Below are positions 49,884 through 61,836 of a stretch of DNA of 64,000 nucleotides, in pieces (within the stretch, counting starts at the first letter, position 1; every line of letters starts with the position of its first letter). Location: positions 1-64,000 of the forward strand of contig JAMXLF010000007.1 in NCBI GenBank assembly GCA_024281055.1. The letters run 5' to 3'. Origin of the DNA: Geobacteraceae bacterium. GTDB taxonomy: Bacteria; Desulfobacterota; Desulfuromonadia; Geobacterales; Geobacteraceae. A program made the position numbers and the translations under genes. Below the pieces are notes generated by a model. That model was not told where the DNA came from. It did not search any database and saw only the letters and a list, made by a program, of their open reading frames with translations.

Positions 49884-50003
49884 GCGAAAATTCCGGCCAT
49901 CGCCTGCCATACGTCCTTCCCCTTCCTCGAATCGCGCACGTAACGTCTTTCATCCGTCACCTCCCGGGACAGCATCCGGGACCCGGTGAAAGAGGAGCAT
50001 ACC

Positions 50004-51089
50004 ATGCCCCGTGAAGCCGATCGGTTGAACCGCCTTCGCATACTGACCGAGATTTCCGCCCTCATCAATTCCACCCTCGATACCCGCGAAATCAGGAAAC
50101 GGGCTACCGAGGCCGCCACGTTGCTGATGCATGCCGAAACGGGGAGTCTTCTCCTGGTCGACCCTGAACGCAACGAGCTTTTTTTCGAGGTGGCACTGGG
50201 CGAACAGGGGGAGAAAATCAAGGAAATCAGGCTGCAGATCGGCCAGGGAATCGCCGGCTGGGTGGCCCGGAACGGCGAGCCGCTCATCATCCACGATGTC
50301 CAGAATGACGAACGATTCTTCCGGGGGGCCGACCAAAAGAGCGACTTCAGGACACGCACCATGCTCTGCGTACCGGTGAAATCCCGGGATACCGTTATCG
50401 GGGTCCTGCAGGCGATCAACAAGAAGGACGGCAGATTCGACTATGACGATCAGGAGACCCTGGCGGCACTCGCCAACCAGGTCGCGGTCGCCATCGAGAA
50501 TGCCCGCCTCTACGAGGAATTGCGGGAAACCTTCTATGGTACGACCGTCGCCCTCGCCGAAACCCTCGAAAAGCGCGACCCCTATACCGGCGGCCATGTA
50601 CGGCGGGTCAGGAACTACAGCCTGGCCATCGGCCGGGGACTCGGCATACAGGCAAAGGATCTGGAGCGTCTCAATCTCTCCGCGATCCTCCACGACATCG
50701 GCAAGGTCGGGGTGCGGGACAGCGTCCTGCTCAAGGAAGGGAAACTTGACCCCGACGAACTGGCCGCCATGAACCAGCATTCCCTCTTCGGCGCGGAGAT
50801 CCTCCAGCATGTGCGTCACCTCCAGGACGTCATTCCCGGGGTAAGGGGGCACCACGAGAAATACGACGGGAGCGGCTATCCCGACGGCCTGCGCGGGGAG
50901 GATATTCCCCTCAACGCCAGGGTCATCGCCGTGGCCGACACCTTCGACGCCATGACCACCGACCGACCGTACCGCAAAGCGCTCAGCGTTTCCACCGCGT
51001 TCTCGGAACTGAGAAAAGGGTGCGGCACCCAGTTCGATGCAGAGGTCGTCGAGACGTTCATCAAAGCTTTTGAACAGGGAGAGATCTGA
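50004..51089 (+). CDS. GAF-HD-GYP cyclic-di-GMP phosphodiesterase
   Basis: 361 residues from ATG 50004 (GAGGAG just upstream). GAF domain about 15-165 (RLNRLRILTEISALINST, then AVAIENARL). HD-GYP domain about 170-355: GHVRRVRNYSLAIG, LHDIGKVGVRD near 233, HHEKYDGSGYPDGLRGEDI near 280 with the GYP motif, VADTFDAMTTDRPYR near 310. HD-GYP enzymes hydrolyse c-di-GMP to pGpG or GMP. The GAF domain probably senses a ligand. Overlaps and is co-transcribed with the MBL-fold gene one base downstream. Confidence 0.93.
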   Translation: MPREADRLNRLRILTEISALINSTLDTREIRKRATEAATLLMHAETGSLLLVDPERNELFFEVALGEQGEKIKEIRLQIGQGIAGWVARNGEPLIIHDVQNDERFFRGADQKSDFRTRTMLCVPVKSRDTVIGVLQAINKKDGRFDYDDQETLAALANQVAVAIENARLYEELRETFYGTTVALAETLEKRDPYTGGHVRRVRNYSLAIGRGLGIQAKDLERLNLSAILHDIGKVGVRDSVLLKEGKLDPDELAAMNQHSLFGAEILQHVRHLQDVIPGVRGHHEKYDGSGYPDGLRGEDIPLNARVIAVADTFDAMTTDRPYRKALSVSTAFSELRKGCGTQFDAEVVETFIKAFEQGEI

Positions 51090-54117: not shown

Positions 54118-54266
54118 CTGCTATTGCTTCCTCCTCGGAAATTGTTTGATAGCGCAAGGTTACCAGTAAAGTCCCCGGTTAGGCAAGATTTTCTGCGCGG
54201 AAAAAAGGGACACGCCGCCGGGAAGATCCCTCCTGACGGGAAAATGTGATTATTTTTCGCAGGCGC

Positions 54267-54308
54267 TTGCTTTGCCCGCCAAGGCAGGTAAACTTCTAAA
54301 AAAGAAGT
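54267..54308 (+). promoter_or_regulatory. Candidate promoter and operator of the exopolysaccharide operon
   Basis: TTGCTT and TAAACT (54289-54294) spaced by 16 bp. The inverted repeat ACTTCT-AAAAA-AGAAGT (54292-54308) overlaps the -10 box, and TTAA-TGAGTCG-TTAA follows. It lies about 50 bases upstream of the first gene. The rest of the 54118-54357 gap shows no other element. Confidence 0.45.
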
Positions 54309-54357
54309 GTTAATGAGTCGTTAAGAAATTTAATTAAGTATGCGCTAAGGAAAGATC

Positions 54358-55464
54358 ATGGTACGTCTCGCGTATTTCCTGACGCCGGTTTTTCTGAAGT
54401 ACTTTCTCTTCGGGGTAGTTGGCGTCATCATTGCGGTGACGCTGCTGCTCTTCGTCATTCTCATAATCCACAAGCTGCACGTCGAACATCGGGAGCTGCT
54501 GCTGCGCAAGCTCAAGGACCGGTACACCGTCACCGTCAGCGTCAGGATGCTGGAGTCGTCGGCACGGATCGACAAGCCCGAACACCCCCCCGAGTACGAA
54601 GCCCTCGGCGATGTGCTCATCGACATGATGGTGAACGTCACCGGCGCCATGACCGACCAGCTCCGCGCCATTGCGCGGGAATACGGCATTGTCGGCCACT
54701 ACCGGGAACGGCTCGGTTCCCGCTCCTGGGTAAGGCGTTACCGGGCCGTCGAAAAGCTCGGCTTTCTGAAGCTCCCCGAGCTAAAGCCGATCTACCGCTC
54801 ACTCCTGGACCGGGAGAATGACCCCCACGTGGTCACCAAGGCCATCTGGGCGCTGAGCCTCATCGCCCATGGCGAAGACCTGCCCCTGATCAACCGCTTT
54901 CTGACGGACTCCTGCTTTGCCTCATCCAAGTACAGGTCATACATTTACACCAACGTCATCAGAGCACTCCGGGAACGGGGCGAGGAAGGGATCTTCCTGG
55001 AATTCCTCGCCGGATGGATGGGCGAAGAGGCCGTCTCGGTCATCCTGAAGAAGGATATCATCGAAGCCTGCGGCGCAGAAGGCCTCTACGCCGCCAAGGA
55101 GACGATCATCGCCTATTTCAAAAGGTTCCATGACGTTCCGGAGATGCGCATCTCCTGCATCCGGGCTTTGGAGAAGATCTGTGCCGGCGATGCGCATCCG
55201 CTGATCGCTGAGGGGCTCAGGGACAGTGACTGGCGCGTGCGTGCAGTAGCAGCAAAGGATGCCCACATCTGCCCGGAGGAGATCATCGAACCTCTCGAAC
55301 AAGCGCTCTATGACCGGAACTACCACGTCCGGATCAATGCCGCCCAGGCCCTGAAGCAGATGGGGGAAAGGGGCCTCGCCGTGCTTACCCGCAACATCAG
55401 GAGCGACGACCGGTTCGTTCGGGATGTCGCCTACTACGTACTGGCGGAAAAAGCCTATGCATGA
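54358..55464 (+). CDS. Membrane-anchored HEAT-repeat protein of the exopolysaccharide operon
   Basis: 368 residues. One transmembrane helix near the N-terminus (about 14-38) and helical HEAT/armadillo-like repeats from about 115 (RRYRAVEKLGFLKLPELKP, DPHVVTKAIWALSLIAHG, WRVRAVAAKDAHICPEE, YHVRINAAQALKQMGERG). It should be a cytoplasmic scaffold tethered to the inner membrane, perhaps contacting the synthase. Overlaps the synthase gene by 8 bases, so translation is coupled. Not part of known pga or bcs operons (inference from memory). Confidence 0.8.
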   Translation: MVRLAYFLTPVFLKYFLFGVVGVIIAVTLLLFVILIIHKLHVEHRELLLRKLKDRYTVTVSVRMLESSARIDKPEHPPEYEALGDVLIDMMVNVTGAMTDQLRAIAREYGIVGHYRERLGSRSWVRRYRAVEKLGFLKLPELKPIYRSLLDRENDPHVVTKAIWALSLIAHGEDLPLINRFLTDSCFASSKYRSYIYTNVIRALRERGEEGIFLEFLAGWMGEEAVSVILKKDIIEACGAEGLYAAKETIIAYFKRFHDVPEMRISCIRALEKICAGDAHPLIAEGLRDSDWRVRAVAAKDAHICPEEIIEPLEQALYDRNYHVRINAAQALKQMGERGLAVLTRNIRSDDRFVRDVAYYVLAEKAYA

Positions 55465-56875
55465 GACCCTGAGCCTGATACTGCTGATCCTGCAGATTCT
55501 CGTCTTTTTCTATTTCGTCGCGGTCAACGGCGCATACACCATCTTCACGCTCATATCCCTCAGGGACATCCGGACCCATCTCAACACCATCAGCAACCAG
55601 GAACTCACCACCATCCTCTCGGGGATATTCTACAAGCCGCTCTCCGTCATTGTCCCCGCCCACAACGAGCAGAAGACCATCGTCAGCACAGTAAGATCGC
55701 TCCTCCTCCTCAATTACCCGGAGTTTGAAGTGATCGTCGTCGACGACGGCTCCACCGATGCCACACTGGCCCAATTGACCCAGACCTTCCGGCTCGTGAG
55801 GATCGAGAAACCGGTAAGCATCGTACTGCGCCACGAACCGATCGAGGAAATGTATGTTTCCCTCGACTATCCCCACCTGACGGTGCTCGCCAAGAAAAAC
55901 GGCGGCAAGGCCGACGCCCTCAACGCCGGGATCAATGCATCGAGGTTCCCGATCTTCTGCAGCATCGACGCCGATTCCCTGTTGGAGAGCGACGCCCTCC
56001 TCAGGGCGTCCAAGCTGTTCGTCGAGGACAGGGAAGTCATCGCCACAGGAGGTATCGTCAGGGTCCTCAACGGCTGCACCCTGGAAGGGGGGGTGGTCAC
56101 GGAAGTGAACGCCCCCCGGAAGGCGCTCGAATGCTACCAGGCGGTGGAGTATACGCGGGGGTTCCTGTCGGGGCGGACGTCGTGGAACTTCTTCGACAGC
56201 CTGCTCATCATCTCCGGGGCCTTCGGCATATTCCGGAAGGACATGGTGCTGGCCGTCAATGGATACCGCAAGTCGGTGGGCGAGGATATGGACCTCGTCG
56301 TTCGGCTCCATCGGCACTGCCGGGACAACGGGATCCGCTACAAGGTGGTGTTCGTCCCCGACCCGGTCTGCTGGACCCAGGTCCCTTCTGACCTGGTATC
56401 ACTGCTCAAGCAGCGAAACCGCTGGCATCGGGGCTTGATAGACAGCCTCTGGCACAGCAGGGGGATGCTCTTCAACCCGCGCTACGGCAAGGTCGGCCTG
56501 TTCGGCTTCCCCTATTTCCTTTTCATCGAAGCGACCGGTCCGACCATCGAATTCCTCGGCTATTGCGCTTTCATCCTGTTTTTCATCACCGGCGCCATCA
56601 ACCTGGATTTCATCCTGCTCTTCCTTGTCCTCGCCATATTCTGGGGGATGTGGATCAACCTCGGTTCCATCCTTCTCGACAACATGATCTACAAGCGCTA
56701 CCGGGGCCTCGGGGACCTCCTTAGACTCTGTCTGTTCGGCGCCCTGGAATTCATCGGCTACCGGCAGCTCATCGTCGTGGAACGCTTCATCGCTACCCTC
56801 TTCTTCTGGAAAAAGGATTGGGGCAAACACAAACGTCAGGAGATAAAGAGTGCACCTGTTCAAGAACATGCTTAA
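55457..56875 (+). CDS. PgaC-like glycosyltransferase family 2 polysaccharide synthase
   Basis: 472 residues from ATG 55457. An N-terminal transmembrane helix (5-30) is followed by the catalytic domain: VVDDGSTDATLAQL near 90, SIDADSLLESD near 175 (DxD), VGEDMDLVVRLHR near 275 and QRNRWHRGLIDS near 320 (QxxRW). Several transmembrane segments follow (about 350-440). The D, DxD, ED and QxxRW set marks a processive inverting synthase such as PgaC or HasA; product probably a beta-linked GlcNAc polymer because a deacetylase is encoded nearby (inference). Confidence 0.9.
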   Translation: MHETLSLILLILQILVFFYFVAVNGAYTIFTLISLRDIRTHLNTISNQELTTILSGIFYKPLSVIVPAHNEQKTIVSTVRSLLLLNYPEFEVIVVDDGSTDATLAQLTQTFRLVRIEKPVSIVLRHEPIEEMYVSLDYPHLTVLAKKNGGKADALNAGINASRFPIFCSIDADSLLESDALLRASKLFVEDREVIATGGIVRVLNGCTLEGGVVTEVNAPRKALECYQAVEYTRGFLSGRTSWNFFDSLLIISGAFGIFRKDMVLAVNGYRKSVGEDMDLVVRLHRHCRDNGIRYKVVFVPDPVCWTQVPSDLVSLLKQRNRWHRGLIDSLWHSRGMLFNPRYGKVGLFGFPYFLFIEATGPTIEFLGYCAFILFFITGAINLDFILLFLVLAIFWGMWINLGSILLDNMIYKRYRGLGDLLRLCLFGALEFIGYRQLIVVERFIATLFFWKKDWGKHKRQEIKSAPVQEHA

Positions 56876-57029
56876 TGACTTCTTCTACCTCGTGCCCCGG
56901 ATGATTCTCTTCAGCGTATTTCTGGCCTGTCTGCTGATCACCGTCTTCATCTCGTTCGATCCCCTGCGCCCCTATATGCATCCTCTGGAAACGTTCCGGT
57001 GGTGGGCAGCCCACGCCATTCAGGGATAA
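56850..57029 (+). CDS. PgaD-like small membrane protein, 59 aa
   Basis: GTG at 56850 has AGGAG eight bases upstream; its first 26 bases overlap the synthase gene. The 59-residue product has one transmembrane helix (about 14-34, LVPRMILFSVFLACLLITVF) flanked by basic residues. PgaD is a small inner-membrane partner of PgaC with two helices; the size and position fit a reduced equivalent. Confidence 0.6.
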   Translation: MHLFKNMLNDFFYLVPRMILFSVFLACLLITVFISFDPLRPYMHPLETFRWWAAHAIQG

Positions 57030-57052
57030 GTAACGGACGGGAAAGGGTTGGT

Positions 57053-59467
57053 ATGGATTTTAACAGGCTTGGCTTCCTGGCCCTGGAAAACGGGGACTAT
57101 CAGGAAGCCGTGAACATCTTCCGCAGAGCCATCGAGAAAAGAAAAAGCGCCAGCAGCTTTATCGGTCTGGGAATGGCCTGCGAGCGACTGAGTGACGTTC
57201 CCATGGCCAGATGGGCCTATTACAAATCCCTTGAACTGGATCCCGACAACAGGGAGGCGCTGCCCCGTATAGAGGCCATTGAAAAAATCAGGCCCCGCAC
57301 GCCGGTGAGAACTCGCCAATCCCTGTTCAGGACTGCTGACGACTGCCTGGAGGTTTTCGACGGTACCTGGCGCCGTTTTTTCGTCAAGGGAATAAACCTC
57401 GGTTTGGGACTTCCTGGCTATTTTCCGGGTGAATATGCCGTCAAGAAGGGAACGTACCTGAAATGGTTCCGGCAACTCGCCGACCTGGGGATCAATGCGC
57501 TCCGCATCTACGCGATCCATCCGCCCTGTTTCTACGAAGCACTCGCGGAATTCAACCACGACCGGCACCTCAGGCTCTACCTGTTCCAGGGTATATGGGC
57601 CGAGTTGCCGGAAAACGGTGATTTCAACGATCCGAAATTTCTTACCTACGTACGCGGCAATATAAAAGATGCCGTCGATATCGTTTACGGCCATGCGGAC
57701 CTGCCCGAACGGCCGGGCTATCCCCATGGCACGTATACCATCGACGTCTCTCCATACGCCGCAGGCTTCATATTCGGCAGGGAATGGGAACCCTGCGCCG
57801 TCAGACGGTTCAATGCGATGCACGGAAATGTGGTGCGCGATTTCCGGGGGGCTTTTCTCGGCATCAAGGCTGGCACCCCGTTCGAGATATGGATAACCGA
57901 GACAAGCGATTATCTGCAGAAGTACGAATACGTCACCTACAAGGCCTCCCACCCCGTTTCGGTAAACAACTGGCCGACCCTTGACCCCCTGACTCACCCA
58001 TCCGAGTCCGACAAGACTGAAGAGGCGATGATTCTCGGCTTGTCGAAAAGTACCGATCCCTGCGCGGAGGGAGGGTACCTGTCACTGCAGGAAGATCTGG
58101 AAACCCTCGACGTGGCAAAAATATACCGGAAACAGGGAGGGGGGTTCTTCGCCTCCTACCATCCCTATCCCTACTACCCGGATTTTATGAACAACGATTA
58201 TCTCACGGAGGAAAACCCGTACTATGCGTACCTCACGGCACTGAAACGGCATCACGGCAAACAGCCGGTTCTCGTGGCGGAATTCGGGGTTCCGAGCAGC
58301 AGAGAAATCGCGCACTGGCAGAAGAACGGTTGGCATCACGGTGGACACGACGAGGCACGCCAAGGGGAGATCAACGGCATCCTCATGGAGACGATTCATC
58401 GGTCAGGCATGGCGGGAGGCCTTCTGTTCAGCTGGTTTGACGAGTGGTTCAAGAAGAACTGGATGCTGCTCCCCTACGAGCTTCCCCCGGACAGGAAACC
58501 CTTCTGGTATGCCAGCCAGGACGCTGAAGAGAATTACGGGTTGCTGGCGGCCTATCCCGGCTATCCCGGCAAGAAGGTCACCCTCGATGGCAATGTGGAG
58601 GAGTGGCGCGATGCAGCCATCCTCTATGACAAAAGGACAGAGACCCCGCTTGTTCGCTTCAACGACAATTTCGATCATGTGCGGACCCTGAGGAGGCTCG
58701 CGGTCCAGCACGATGAAGGCTTTCTCTACCTTCGCCTCGAAACGGCAGGCCCTGTCTCTTTTTCGCAGGCGAGCTATCTGATAGGGCTCGACACGTGCGC
58801 ACCGGAAACGGGCGAATTCCTGCTCCCTCTGAAGACGAACCTTGCCACCCCCATCGGCCTCAAGTTCCTGATCCACCTGGCGGGTAACGAGAACAGCAGA
58901 ATCCTCGTCTGCCAGAGCTACGACAAGCGACTGAATTATTACGGACGGCTGGTGAGACCGGAAATCTCCCGCCAGGGGGCCTGGGTAAGCATCCAGAACG
59001 AAACCAACAAGAGGCGTATCAGCAAGGACGGGAAAACGTTTTATCCATCCCGCACGTTCCCCGTGAGTCCACTCCGTTTCGGCAGTCTCAACCCGGGGAA
59101 TCCTTTGCACAATACACTGGCGGATTTCTATGTCGCCGGCAACGGTATCGAGCTGCGGCTTCCCTGGAGTCTGCTCAATTTCACCGACCCGAGTTCGAAG
59201 TCGGTACTGTGGATGGACAAAAATAGCCAAACAAGGATAACCGACGGCATAAGGATACTCGCCGTTTCCTTCAAGCCGGAGAGCGGACAGCTGTTTGCCA
59301 GGGATACCGGCTTGCCGAGCCGCATCACCGATTCATTGCCGGAAAGGCTCGGGAGAGAGAATGTCCGCACCTACTCATGGGAAGATTGGGAAGCCCCCGT
59401 TTACCATACCTATCTCAAGGAAAGCTACCACGTGTACCGGAAGGTGCTCGCAAAGCTTCCGGGGTGA
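57053..59467 (+). CDS. TPR-glycosidase-CBM9-like protein
   Basis: 804 residues from ATG 57053 (MDFNRLGFLALENGDYQEA). Residues 1-80 form two TPR-like helical pairs. Residues about 100-500 are a TIM-barrel glycosidase of GH2/GH5-like type: VKGINLGLGLPGYFPGEY near 105, LADLGINALRIYAIHPP near 140, LVAEFGVPSSREI near 420 and GLLFSWFDEWFKKNW near 465, with candidate catalytic Glu/Asp residues. Residues about 500-800 resemble a carbohydrate-binding/DOMON domain (KVTLDGNVEEWRDAAILYD). No signal peptide is evident. A starting ATG at 56999 would overlap the small membrane gene. It may process the nascent or trimmed polymer. Confidence 0.82.
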   Translation: MDFNRLGFLALENGDYQEAVNIFRRAIEKRKSASSFIGLGMACERLSDVPMARWAYYKSLELDPDNREALPRIEAIEKIRPRTPVRTRQSLFRTADDCLEVFDGTWRRFFVKGINLGLGLPGYFPGEYAVKKGTYLKWFRQLADLGINALRIYAIHPPCFYEALAEFNHDRHLRLYLFQGIWAELPENGDFNDPKFLTYVRGNIKDAVDIVYGHADLPERPGYPHGTYTIDVSPYAAGFIFGREWEPCAVRRFNAMHGNVVRDFRGAFLGIKAGTPFEIWITETSDYLQKYEYVTYKASHPVSVNNWPTLDPLTHPSESDKTEEAMILGLSKSTDPCAEGGYLSLQEDLETLDVAKIYRKQGGGFFASYHPYPYYPDFMNNDYLTEENPYYAYLTALKRHHGKQPVLVAEFGVPSSREIAHWQKNGWHHGGHDEARQGEINGILMETIHRSGMAGGLLFSWFDEWFKKNWMLLPYELPPDRKPFWYASQDAEENYGLLAAYPGYPGKKVTLDGNVEEWRDAAILYDKRTETPLVRFNDNFDHVRTLRRLAVQHDEGFLYLRLETAGPVSFSQASYLIGLDTCAPETGEFLLPLKTNLATPIGLKFLIHLAGNENSRILVCQSYDKRLNYYGRLVRPEISRQGAWVSIQNETNKRRISKDGKTFYPSRTFPVSPLRFGSLNPGNPLHNTLADFYVAGNGIELRLPWSLLNFTDPSSKSVLWMDKNSQTRITDGIRILAVSFKPESGQLFARDTGLPSRITDSLPERLGRENVRTYSWEDWEAPVYHTYLKESYHVYRKVLAKLPG

Positions 59468-59473
59468 ACTGCC

Positions 59474-60244
59474 ATGCCACTGACGAGAAGGGATTTCCTT
59501 AAACTCGGCTGCGCGACGGCCATCGCCTCGGTGACGTTCCCGGGGTTGCTCCATGCCGCTCCGGTACAGGTTCCAATCCTCATGTACCATGACATCGCCG
59601 AGCTGTTTCGGGATGACTACACCACCGCCCCTGCCTTGTTCGCCGCGCAGATGGAATGGCTTTACGCAAACGGCTACCGGACGATACTCCTGCCGGAACT
59701 GGCAGACCCGGACAACGTGCGGGGGAACGTGGTCATCCTGACCTTCGACGATGGCTACGCCTCGTTCATGGACTACGCCTTCCCTCTGCTCAGGGAGTAC
59801 CGGTTCAAGGCGTACATCAACATCATAGGGAAATCCGTCGGAACCTTCATCGACATCGACGGGAACAGGCCCCTTCTGAGCTGGGACGAGTATCGCCATC
59901 TGGGTCGGAGCGGACTTGTCGCTTTCGGCTGTCATACGTATGACCTCCATTATCGGGGAGGAGTAAAGAAGGTTTCAGGTGAACGGCTGGAACAAGACTT
60001 GACGCTGTTCCAGGAAACGCTCCGGCGCGAAACGGGCACCACTACGGAAGTCCTGGCCTGGCCCTATGGCGCCCACAACGATACCGCCATCAGAATTGCC
60101 CAGAAACTCGGCTTCAGATACCTGCTGACATCGAACGAGGAACGTCTGCGGGTAACCGGGTCGTATGAAAGGATTCCACGACTGACGATCAACAGCAGGG
60201 TCGACCTCGTTTCATTTCAACAGTACATAGGAGATCAGTCATGA
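59474..60244 (+). CDS. Tat-secreted polysaccharide deacetylase (PgaB N-domain-like)
   Basis: 256 residues. A Tat signal TRRDFLKLGC...ASVTFPGLLHA at residues 4-28. NodB/CE4 domain: LTFDDGYASFMDYAFP near 91, GCHTYDLHYRGG near 155 (His and Asp ligands, as in PgaB), LAWPYGAHN near 195. It should deacetylate GlcNAc residues in the periplasm. The second, hydrolase-like domain of E. coli PgaB is absent. Overlaps the next gene by 4 bases. Confidence 0.9.
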   Translation: MPLTRRDFLKLGCATAIASVTFPGLLHAAPVQVPILMYHDIAELFRDDYTTAPALFAAQMEWLYANGYRTILLPELADPDNVRGNVVILTFDDGYASFMDYAFPLLREYRFKAYINIIGKSVGTFIDIDGNRPLLSWDEYRHLGRSGLVAFGCHTYDLHYRGGVKKVSGERLEQDLTLFQETLRRETGTTTEVLAWPYGAHNDTAIRIAQKLGFRYLLTSNEERLRVTGSYERIPRLTINSRVDLVSFQQYIGDQS

Positions 60245-61836
60245 TATCGCGAGGCATTTTGCCGCTCATCGTTGTCCTCTGGAGTGCTGCGGCCTGCCTT
60301 GCCGCATCCCCGGCCGAGCTCTCCGCTGAGGGAAAATTCGACGAGGCTGTGGCGGCTTACCAGAAGGCAATCGAGGCGGCCGCTGACAACCGGGAAAAGG
60401 GGATGCTCTACAAGCAGCTCGGGGACCTCTACGTCACGAAGGACGACTACGGAAAGGCGGCCGATCAATTCATCCCGGCCCTCGCCCATTACGGCGGCTT
60501 CAGCGAAAAGGAGCGCCTGCAGATGGCCATCTACATCGCCTGGGCGGACCGCCTCAAGGAGGCCATCACCGCGGTCAGGGCCATCCTCGCCATAAATCCC
60601 GACAACACGGATGCCCGGGTCAACCTGGCACGGTTTCTCTCGTGGGCCAACGAGCTTACCCCGGCCATCGAAGAGGCCGACCGCGTGCTGGAGGCATCCC
60701 CCGACAACCGCGATGTTCTCCTCGTCAAGGCCAATGCCCTGAGCTGGCGGGGCGACTACGACCTCGCCATCCCCATCTACCGGGACCTTCTGAACAAGGG
60801 GGACAATTTCGACGCCCGCCTGGGGCTGGCCAACGCGCTTCTCGCCAGCGGCCAGCGGGCTGAGGCGGAGCAGGCGGCCATGCCGCTCCAACCCGCCTAC
60901 TCGTACCAGGAGCGGGAACTGGGGAAATTCCGCACGGCCCTCGGCAAGACCACGCTGCACGACATCGACCTCCGCTATTCTTATTACCGCGATACGGACC
61001 ACAATTATTACAATCGCGTCACTGCGTCGTACACCTATAACCCCGGGACATGGCGGGCCGGGGCAAGCTACAGGCGTACGTATGCCTGGGAACATATCCC
61101 GAGCGGCCGGGCCGAAGAGTTCGCCGCAAATTTCTATGCACAGGCGATAAAGTTCCTGGGAGTCGGCGGCAGCGTGGGGTTGACGCAGACGAGCAGCTGG
61201 AACGGGGACCACCTGCATGTTACCGGCCAGGTCAAGGCTGACGCCACCGTCCTCAAGGGCACCGCCGGCGCCTCATTCAGCAGGGAAGCATTCACCGAAA
61301 CGGCCCAGCTCATCCAGAACGGCATCACGTACACCAATGCCAGCGTCTATTTCTCCCAGAAACTGGTCGACAGCCTGACCCTTTCCGGGAGCTACAGCTA
61401 CCGAGCCTATTCGGACAGCAACCACGCCAACGACGTCCAGCTATCCCCCCGCTATACCCTGTACGCCGGGAACCCGACCATCACTGCGGGAGCCCGTCTC
61501 CGCTATCTGAATTTTGACCACCAGACGGCCCATGGTTATTTCGATCCGAACTATTTCCAGTCGTACGGCATCTTCGTGTCAGCCTACGGTGAATGGGGAA
61601 ATTTCTACGGCTATCTCGAGCCGAACGGAGGGTATCAGACATTCCGGAGGAAAAACATAGCGCAGATCGCCTCTAACACCGACGACCTGTATGGCGGGGT
61701 GAACGGATCGATGGGATACCGGATCACGAAGAATGTGCTCTTCGAGGCGGAGGGGGAATTCGGTAACTACGCACTGGGGACGACGAGCGGTTTCGAGTAC
61801 TACGTTATCGGAGCACGGATCGGGCTGACCTTCTGA
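60241..61836 (+). CDS. PgaA-like TPR-beta-barrel exporter
   Basis: 531 residues with a signal peptide (about 1-20). TPR-like repeats fill 20-215 (LSAEGKFDEAVAAYQKAIEAA, LNPDNTDARVNLARFLSW), and a C-terminal beta-barrel follows (about 230-531, alternating aromatic strands ending in GARIGLTF with terminal Phe, as in outer membrane proteins). This resembles PgaA/BcsC export pores but is shorter than PgaA (807). ATG 60241 overlaps the deacetylase stop. Confidence 0.85.
   Translation: MISRGILPLIVVLWSAAACLAASPAELSAEGKFDEAVAAYQKAIEAAADNREKGMLYKQLGDLYVTKDDYGKAADQFIPALAHYGGFSEKERLQMAIYIAWADRLKEAITAVRAILAINPDNTDARVNLARFLSWANELTPAIEEADRVLEASPDNRDVLLVKANALSWRGDYDLAIPIYRDLLNKGDNFDARLGLANALLASGQRAEAEQAAMPLQPAYSYQERELGKFRTALGKTTLHDIDLRYSYYRDTDHNYYNRVTASYTYNPGTWRAGASYRRTYAWEHIPSGRAEEFAANFYAQAIKFLGVGGSVGLTQTSSWNGDHLHVTGQVKADATVLKGTAGASFSREAFTETAQLIQNGITYTNASVYFSQKLVDSLTLSGSYSYRAYSDSNHANDVQLSPRYTLYAGNPTITAGARLRYLNFDHQTAHGYFDPNYFQSYGIFVSAYGEWGNFYGYLEPNGGYQTFRRKNIAQIASNTDDLYGGVNGSMGYRITKNVLFEAEGEFGNYALGTTSGFEYYVIGARIGLTF

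Follow-up and report, generated by a model that had tools for sequence, protein, structure and literature searches.

A probable exopolysaccharide operon of a Geobacteraceae bacterium belongs to an apparently undescribed class of HEAT-partnered GT2 synthases

The pgaABCD operon of Escherichia coli encodes a GT2 synthase, a CE4 deacetylase, a glycosidase and a porin composed of a TPR domain and a 16-strand beta-barrel. The bcs, pel and alginate systems likewise combine an inner-membrane synthase with periplasmic modifying enzymes and a TPR-linked outer-membrane channel. Known synthases of these systems pair with PgaD, a PilZ domain, Alg44 or PelD (PMC8461298). Here we analyze a 64,000-nucleotide stretch from a Geobacteraceae bacterium (the window; assembly GCA_024281055.1, contig JAMXLF010000007.1, positions 1 to 64,000), in which six packed plus-strand genes at 54358-61836 encode this shared set of components together with a membrane-anchored HEAT-repeat protein. 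An earlier account of the operon, made from the sequence alone (hereafter the preliminary description), had noted no known counterpart of the HEAT protein in pga or bcs and had proposed that the operon may define its own class. To our knowledge, none of the pga, bcs, pel and alginate systems has a HEAT counterpart, and HEAT-partnered GT2 synthases appear to be a widespread, apparently undescribed class in Bacteria and Archaea.

All six open reading frames (ORFs) of the preliminary description lie where it placed them. From the HEAT gene through to the porin gene, the successive gaps are -8, -26, +23, +6 and -4 nt, and minus-strand genes flank the operon directly on either side. Pfam and NCBIfam searches matched HEAT, GT2, TPR, polysaccharide deacetylase and Tat signal models in the operon proteins, while no PilZ or GGDEF domain was found in them with Pfam. 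The operon and its upstream region comprise the following features:

54118..54357, plus strand: presumed promoter region, intergenic, separating the operon from the minus-strand ABC-F gene
54358..55464, plus strand: HEAT-repeat protein, 368 aa (Pfam HEAT_2, 8.8e-23; hydropathy; homologues adjoin GT2 genes elsewhere)
55457..56875, plus strand: GT2 processive polysaccharide synthase, 472 aa (Pfam, NCBIfam, motifs, own clade)
56850..57029, plus strand: one-helix membrane protein of 59 aa, specific to the window (codon use; no sister homologue)
57053..59467, plus strand: TPR domain, TIM-barrel glycosidase and C-terminal beta domain, hereafter TPRGH (Pfam TPR, structure model, alignment)
59474..60244, plus strand: PgaB/IcaB-type CE4 polysaccharide deacetylase carrying a Tat signal (TIGR03938, TAT_signal, matches to PgaB structures in the PDB, alignment)
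60241..61836, plus strand: outer-membrane exporter with signal peptide, TPR domain and 16-strand beta-barrel (structure model and PDB matches)

The GT2 protein carries the motifs of a processive synthase (DDGSTD, DAD, GED and QxxRW), as expected of the inner-membrane component of a synthase-dependent exopolysaccharide system. It had been called PgaC-like, which holds insofar as PgaC_IcaA is its best NCBIfam model; however, the score of 115 bits does not reach the 422-bit cut-off. In our tree, the HEAT-linked GT2s instead form one clade, split from PgaC, IcaA and other GT2s with a support of 0.999, and they carry two insertions that PgaC does not have. The second-best NCBIfam model, TIGR03111 (87 bits), describes the GT2 of XrtG-associated loci in Lactobacillales, but these loci are exosortase-type and without a HEAT gene, and their GT2 falls outside the HEAT clade. 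Also outside the clade is IcaA from the staphylococcal icaADBC operon for polysaccharide intercellular adhesin/poly-N-acetylglucosamine (PIA/PNAG), which shares a GT2 synthase and a CE4 deacetylase with the window operon but has no HEAT gene, porin or GH-A glycosidase.

The window HEAT gene overlaps the GT2 gene by 8 nt, and a HEAT gene lies beside every synthase of the clade for which enough upstream sequence is available. The membrane anchor noted in the preliminary description is a single N-terminal segment (residues 19-37 by hydropathy), and the HEAT solenoid is predicted to be cytoplasmic. We built a HEAT profile from 16 family members, and loci chosen by the GT2 profile alone are not among these 16. 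In loci chosen in this way, HEAT adjoins GT2 in 7 of 7 further Desulfobacterota cases outside the operon set and in 29 of 30 Gemmatimonadota cases, the 30th being cut by a contig end. Outside the clade, neither GT2-related loci nor controls, among them pga of E. coli and Plesiomonas, ica and XrtG loci, contained a HEAT match. Together with the clade support, the constant HEAT neighbor agrees with the earlier proposal of a separate class.

This class is not confined to Desulfobacterota; neighborhood comparison shows that it spans many phyla as well as Archaea. A HEAT-linked GT2 was present in 69 of the 249 Gemmatimonadota genomes sampled (28%; loci L169-L198). The glycosidase family occurs in 41 of 100 Paenibacillaceae genomes sampled, and in 18 of the 20 Paenibacillus glycosidase loci examined GT2 and HEAT adjoin, without a deacetylase or porin. 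Receiver-domain (REC) genes often lie near these Paenibacillus loci, GGDEF genes sometimes, and a nucleotide-sugar dehydrogenase gene is also nearby; one locus (L070, 7406-15292) carries two glycosidase paralogues in tandem, with HEAT and GT2 after them. HEAT-GT2 pairs were also found on PLSDB plasmids of Deinococcus, haloarchaea, Mesorhizobium, Erythrobacter, Devosia, Planococcus, Bacteroides and Legionella, carriers that span Deinococcota, Halobacteria, Alpha- and Gammaproteobacteria, Bacilli and Bacteroidota. On the Planococcus plasmid (L089, 1-7251), genes for a polyphosphate-polymerase-like protein, a DUF4956 protein and CotH stand directly upstream of glycosidase-HEAT-GT2. In Emticicia the HEAT match is weak. 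A minimal diderm form is HEAT-GT2-porin, and in Halosolutus, an archaeal member, glmS and a sugar nucleotidyltransferase gene lie downstream.

We found no paper in the open-access literature that describes HEAT-linked synthases. The main text of a 2020 survey (PMC7112194) does not mention HEAT, although it reports a pga variant without pgaD and without detectable pgaB; this variant might overlap the HEAT-GT2 class. Two other systems were considered as possible members. The APS system of Sinorhizobium meliloti, a candidate for a characterized member, makes a surface polysaccharide controlled by cyclic di-GMP (c-di-GMP) and has sugar-nucleotide genes like those of the Legionella HEAT-GT2 locus, but the pSymB region contains no HEAT gene and the APS synthase does not match the HEAT-linked GT2s. 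The emb/psc clusters of Rubrivivax are Wzx/Wzy-like with PEP-CTERM genes and were also set aside.

The arrangement HEAT-GT2-TPRGH-deacetylase-porin, whole or in part at contig ends, was recovered with the glycosidase query in 14 other genomes of Desulfobacterota and Nitrospirota, and a HEAT gene is present in 13 of the 13 sister loci that have upstream sequence. Given this synteny, the five-gene arrangement is conserved far beyond chance. It consists of two modules, because in one sister locus (L028, 3521-11173) HEAT-GT2 is divergent from TPRGH-deacetylase-porin. The genes also differ in their divergence. TPRGH and the deacetylase of the window are about as similar to their sisters (56.5% and 52.2% identity) as the sisters are to one another (57.7% and 53.7%), whereas identity drops for HEAT (27.5% compared to 38.2% among sisters) and GT2 (43.1% compared to 57.9%), and the window GT2 groups with Deinococcus in the tree (0.949). 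This shared divergence of HEAT and GT2, absent from TPRGH and the deacetylase, suggests that the two were exchanged as one unit, as expected of physical partners; faster evolution of both genes is a possible alternative. A further locus (L033, 5953-13402), in which the GT2 frame has an internal TAA and the porin is in two pieces about 1.2 kb apart, is apparently a decayed copy of the operon.

The best single evidence that the operon encodes a synthase-dependent exopolysaccharide machine is the fold modeled for the exporter. As for all structure models here, a single chain was modeled (mean pLDDT 89.1), giving a TPR domain and 16 strands, in agreement with the TPR-beta-barrel porin of the preliminary description. 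Its five best VIA-align matches in the PDB are three BcsC structures (Z 27.3-27.6), PgaA (Z 26.2; 2.4 A over 271 of 290 residues) and PelB (Z 25.6), and the next match drops to Z 19. Despite the shared fold, the exporter scores 30 bits against the curated PgaA model, for which the cut-off is 367. Longer porins occur at two other loci, one (L003, 13169-15175) with an extra N-terminal stretch resembling a SPOR domain, the other in L005.

The deacetylase matches TIGR03938 (6.7e-39) and carries a TAT_signal match above cut-off, so that its description as a Tat-type enzyme stands. PgaB is its best NCBIfam model (134 bits), the IcaB model and PgaB structures in the PDB also match, and the metal and catalytic residues D92, D93, H154 and H159 are kept in the alignment. 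A twin-arginine motif is present in 12 of the 12 operon deacetylases checked. From these features it is predicted to be the periplasmic polymer-modifying enzyme typical of synthase-dependent systems.

In the TPR-glycosidase-CBM9-like protein of the preliminary description, the TPR part is matched by Pfam and the glycosidase fold by modeling, but Pfam returned no domain beyond TPR, leaving the glycosidase and CBM9-like parts unmatched, and no CBM9 match appeared in the C-terminal domain even at E 10. The likeness of that domain to CBM9 consists of a DGxxEW motif and beta structure only. The TPRGH model (pLDDT 85.9) contains a TIM barrel of the clan GH-A fold that aligns best with a GH157 endo-beta-1,3-glucanase (Z 29.6, 2.9 A, 310 residues, 16% identity) and next with GH2 and GH72 enzymes; when the glycosidase profile was searched against PDB sequences, the matches listed were all TPR proteins. 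In the model, E244 follows strand 4 and E410 ends strand 7, and both residues are invariant in 21 glycosidase sequences, a pattern typical of retaining enzymes in clan GH-A. The preliminary description had regarded TPRGH as the hydrolase that E. coli fuses to its deacetylase, here a separate protein. It is indeed separate, but of an unrelated family. PgaB GH153 is not among the listed fold matches, and because this absence alone proves nothing, we compared profiles directly, obtaining a probability of 0.6% for homology with the C-terminal domain of E. coli PgaB. Furthermore, GH153 catalysis uses aspartate (PMC5933820), in contrast to the two invariant glutamates of TPRGH. Another homologue of the glycosidase (L035, 8004-12074) has a long extra C-terminal domain and is not adjoined by HEAT or GT2.

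As a whole, the operon almost certainly serves to produce, trim and export a surface sugar polymer, and it is most probably a trans-envelope exopolysaccharide machine of the HEAT-partnered synthase class, an explanation that we hold with reasonable confidence. It is directly supported by the genes and their synteny, the HEAT linkage, the exporter and glycosidase folds and the conserved catalytic residues. In such a machine, the GT2 would build the polymer from a nucleotide sugar on the cytoplasmic side of the inner membrane and pass the growing chain across through its own transmembrane helices. The HEAT protein, anchored in the membrane, would be its obligate cytoplasmic partner, scaffolding and gating the synthase and standing in for PgaD, Alg44 or the PilZ domain of known systems. 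Once in the periplasm, the polymer would lose acetyl groups to the CE4 enzyme and be trimmed by the GH-A glycosidase, with the TPR-barrel porin docking both enzymes and exporting it. The binding and gating of GT2 by HEAT, the polymer, the site of action of the glycosidase and any signal input are parts that we infer. The polymer is probably based on an N-acetylhexosamine, since the deacetylase is PgaB-type and glmS lies beside the Halosolutus member.

Several observations weigh against this explanation. HEAT proteins of the class are poorly conserved (13-23% identity to that of the window) and may differ in role, and many HEAT-GT2 class members are missing the deacetylase. TPRGH has no signal sequence in the window or in 12 of 12 sister operons, which fits a periplasmic role badly, and its nearest folds (GH157, then GH2 and GH72) do not indicate hexosamine. 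The operon is also rare in the family of its host.

Similar logic and parts raise the question of whether this is simply a divergent pga operon making poly-beta-1,6-GlcNAc, in which PgaD has become shorter and PgaB has separated into two proteins. The PgaC_IcaA and PgaB models are the best for the synthase and deacetylase, and the exporter fold equals that of PgaA. However, the synthase and exporter both fall well below their pga cut-offs, the synthase lies outside PgaC/IcaA with its two insertions, the glycosidase shows no relation to the GH domain of PgaB, no PgaD homologue was found with Pfam or NCBIfam, and a HEAT subunit is always present. The operon also differs from pgaABCD in gene order, in having HEAT instead of PgaD, in a glycosidase that is a separate protein without a signal and in a deacetylase with a Tat signal, which E. 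coli PgaB does not have. We therefore agree with the preliminary description that the logic, but not the identity, is that of pga, and consider a divergent pga operon quite improbable. The bcs, pel and alginate systems are set apart in a similar way; BcsC and PelB are among the top structural matches of the exporter, but the operon has no BcsB, PilZ, PelD/E/F/G or Alg44-like part and does have HEAT. An unlikely, although slightly better, alternative is a beta-glucan system (1,3- or mixed linkage), in which the glycosidase would be a trimming or branching glucanase or a transglycosylase and the CE4 enzyme would remove O-acetyl groups. The GH157 endo-beta-1,3-glucanase and GH72 glucanosyltransferase folds are among the best matches, and several class members have no deacetylase. 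GH-A folds nevertheless cover many specificities, with GH2 enzymes scoring nearly equal, and both the PgaB/IcaB N-deacetylase type of the CE4 enzyme and the glmS neighbor of the archaeal member point away from a glucan.

A different question is where TPRGH acts. It could be cytoplasmic, working on the nascent chain or a primer via a TPR-HEAT contact and thus standing outside the periplasmic machine, which we regard as a serious contender that falls somewhat short of an even chance. An N-terminal hydrophobic segment is missing from all 12 sister proteins but lies near the start in 18 of 18 Paenibacillus homologues listed, in Deinococcus and in most others. The TPRGH frame is open upstream of its ATG (from GTG 56999), but no signal is encoded there. 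Conversely, homologues that do not belong to this operon type are either secreted or anchored in the membrane, and in a WOR-3 metagenome-assembled genome (L007, 1823-4999; TPR protein adjoining) the glycosidase is fused to a polysaccharide deacetylase, the fusion starting with a membrane segment. The twin-arginine motif of the operon deacetylases would permit co-export. The lack of a signal on TPRGH, the Tat signal that every checked operon deacetylase carries and the fusion seen in WOR-3 together suggest that TPRGH is co-exported via Tat with its deacetylase partner.

Within the HEAT-partnered synthase explanation, a bolder form may be proposed, tentatively, and we would sooner expect it to fail than to hold in full. 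HEAT-GT2 would be a distinct, undescribed class in which HEAT is an obligate activator that relays the phosphorelay or c-di-GMP state from receiver-domain neighbors, and the signal-less glycosidase would be exported folded with the Tat-borne deacetylase. If the HEAT-partnered synthase explanation itself is right, the HEAT solenoid would be a new type of regulatory subunit for processive synthases, of which few modes of control are known, and a common surface-polymer machine would have been missed because every gene has a generic name. This could explain why surveys with pga, bcs, pel and alginate profiles miss the system.

The small ORF between GT2 and TPRGH is probably a real, lineage-specific gene, as it has coding-like codon use (0.47 nats/codon in its own frame, with about -0.5 in each of the remaining forward frames) and a good ribosome-binding site. 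The preliminary description had called its 59-aa product PgaD-like, a likeness that did not survive. The protein has one hydrophobic segment, whereas PgaD of E. coli has two, and it matches no PgaD model in Pfam or NCBIfam. No significant homologue was found in sister operons by tblastn, and in most of these GT2 and TPRGH are adjacent or overlapping, leaving no counterpart. A weak match to cytochrome b559 (19 of 30 bits) is probably due to chance.

The operon is present in one copy in the 4.4 Mb host genome. A scan for sigma-70-type promoters and a terminator scan of the operon gave nothing above chance. Its G+C content is 58.0%, compared to 62.3% in the remaining window, and is among the lowest of 114 operon-length windows. 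Among 58 relatives of the host (family and order), just two further genomes encode the glycosidase, one of them in a distant form, and this near absence from the host family and order suggests that the operon was gained horizontally. The flanking ABC-F and SpoU genes are both present in 19 of the 19 genomes searched, but in the relatives they are not neighbors; no clean empty site was seen, and an insertion could not be shown. It should also be noted that a gene oriented like the operon and located 3.3 kb upstream (49986-51089, plus strand) encodes a GAF and HD-GYP-type protein with the motif HHEKYDGSGYP, a candidate c-di-GMP phosphodiesterase.

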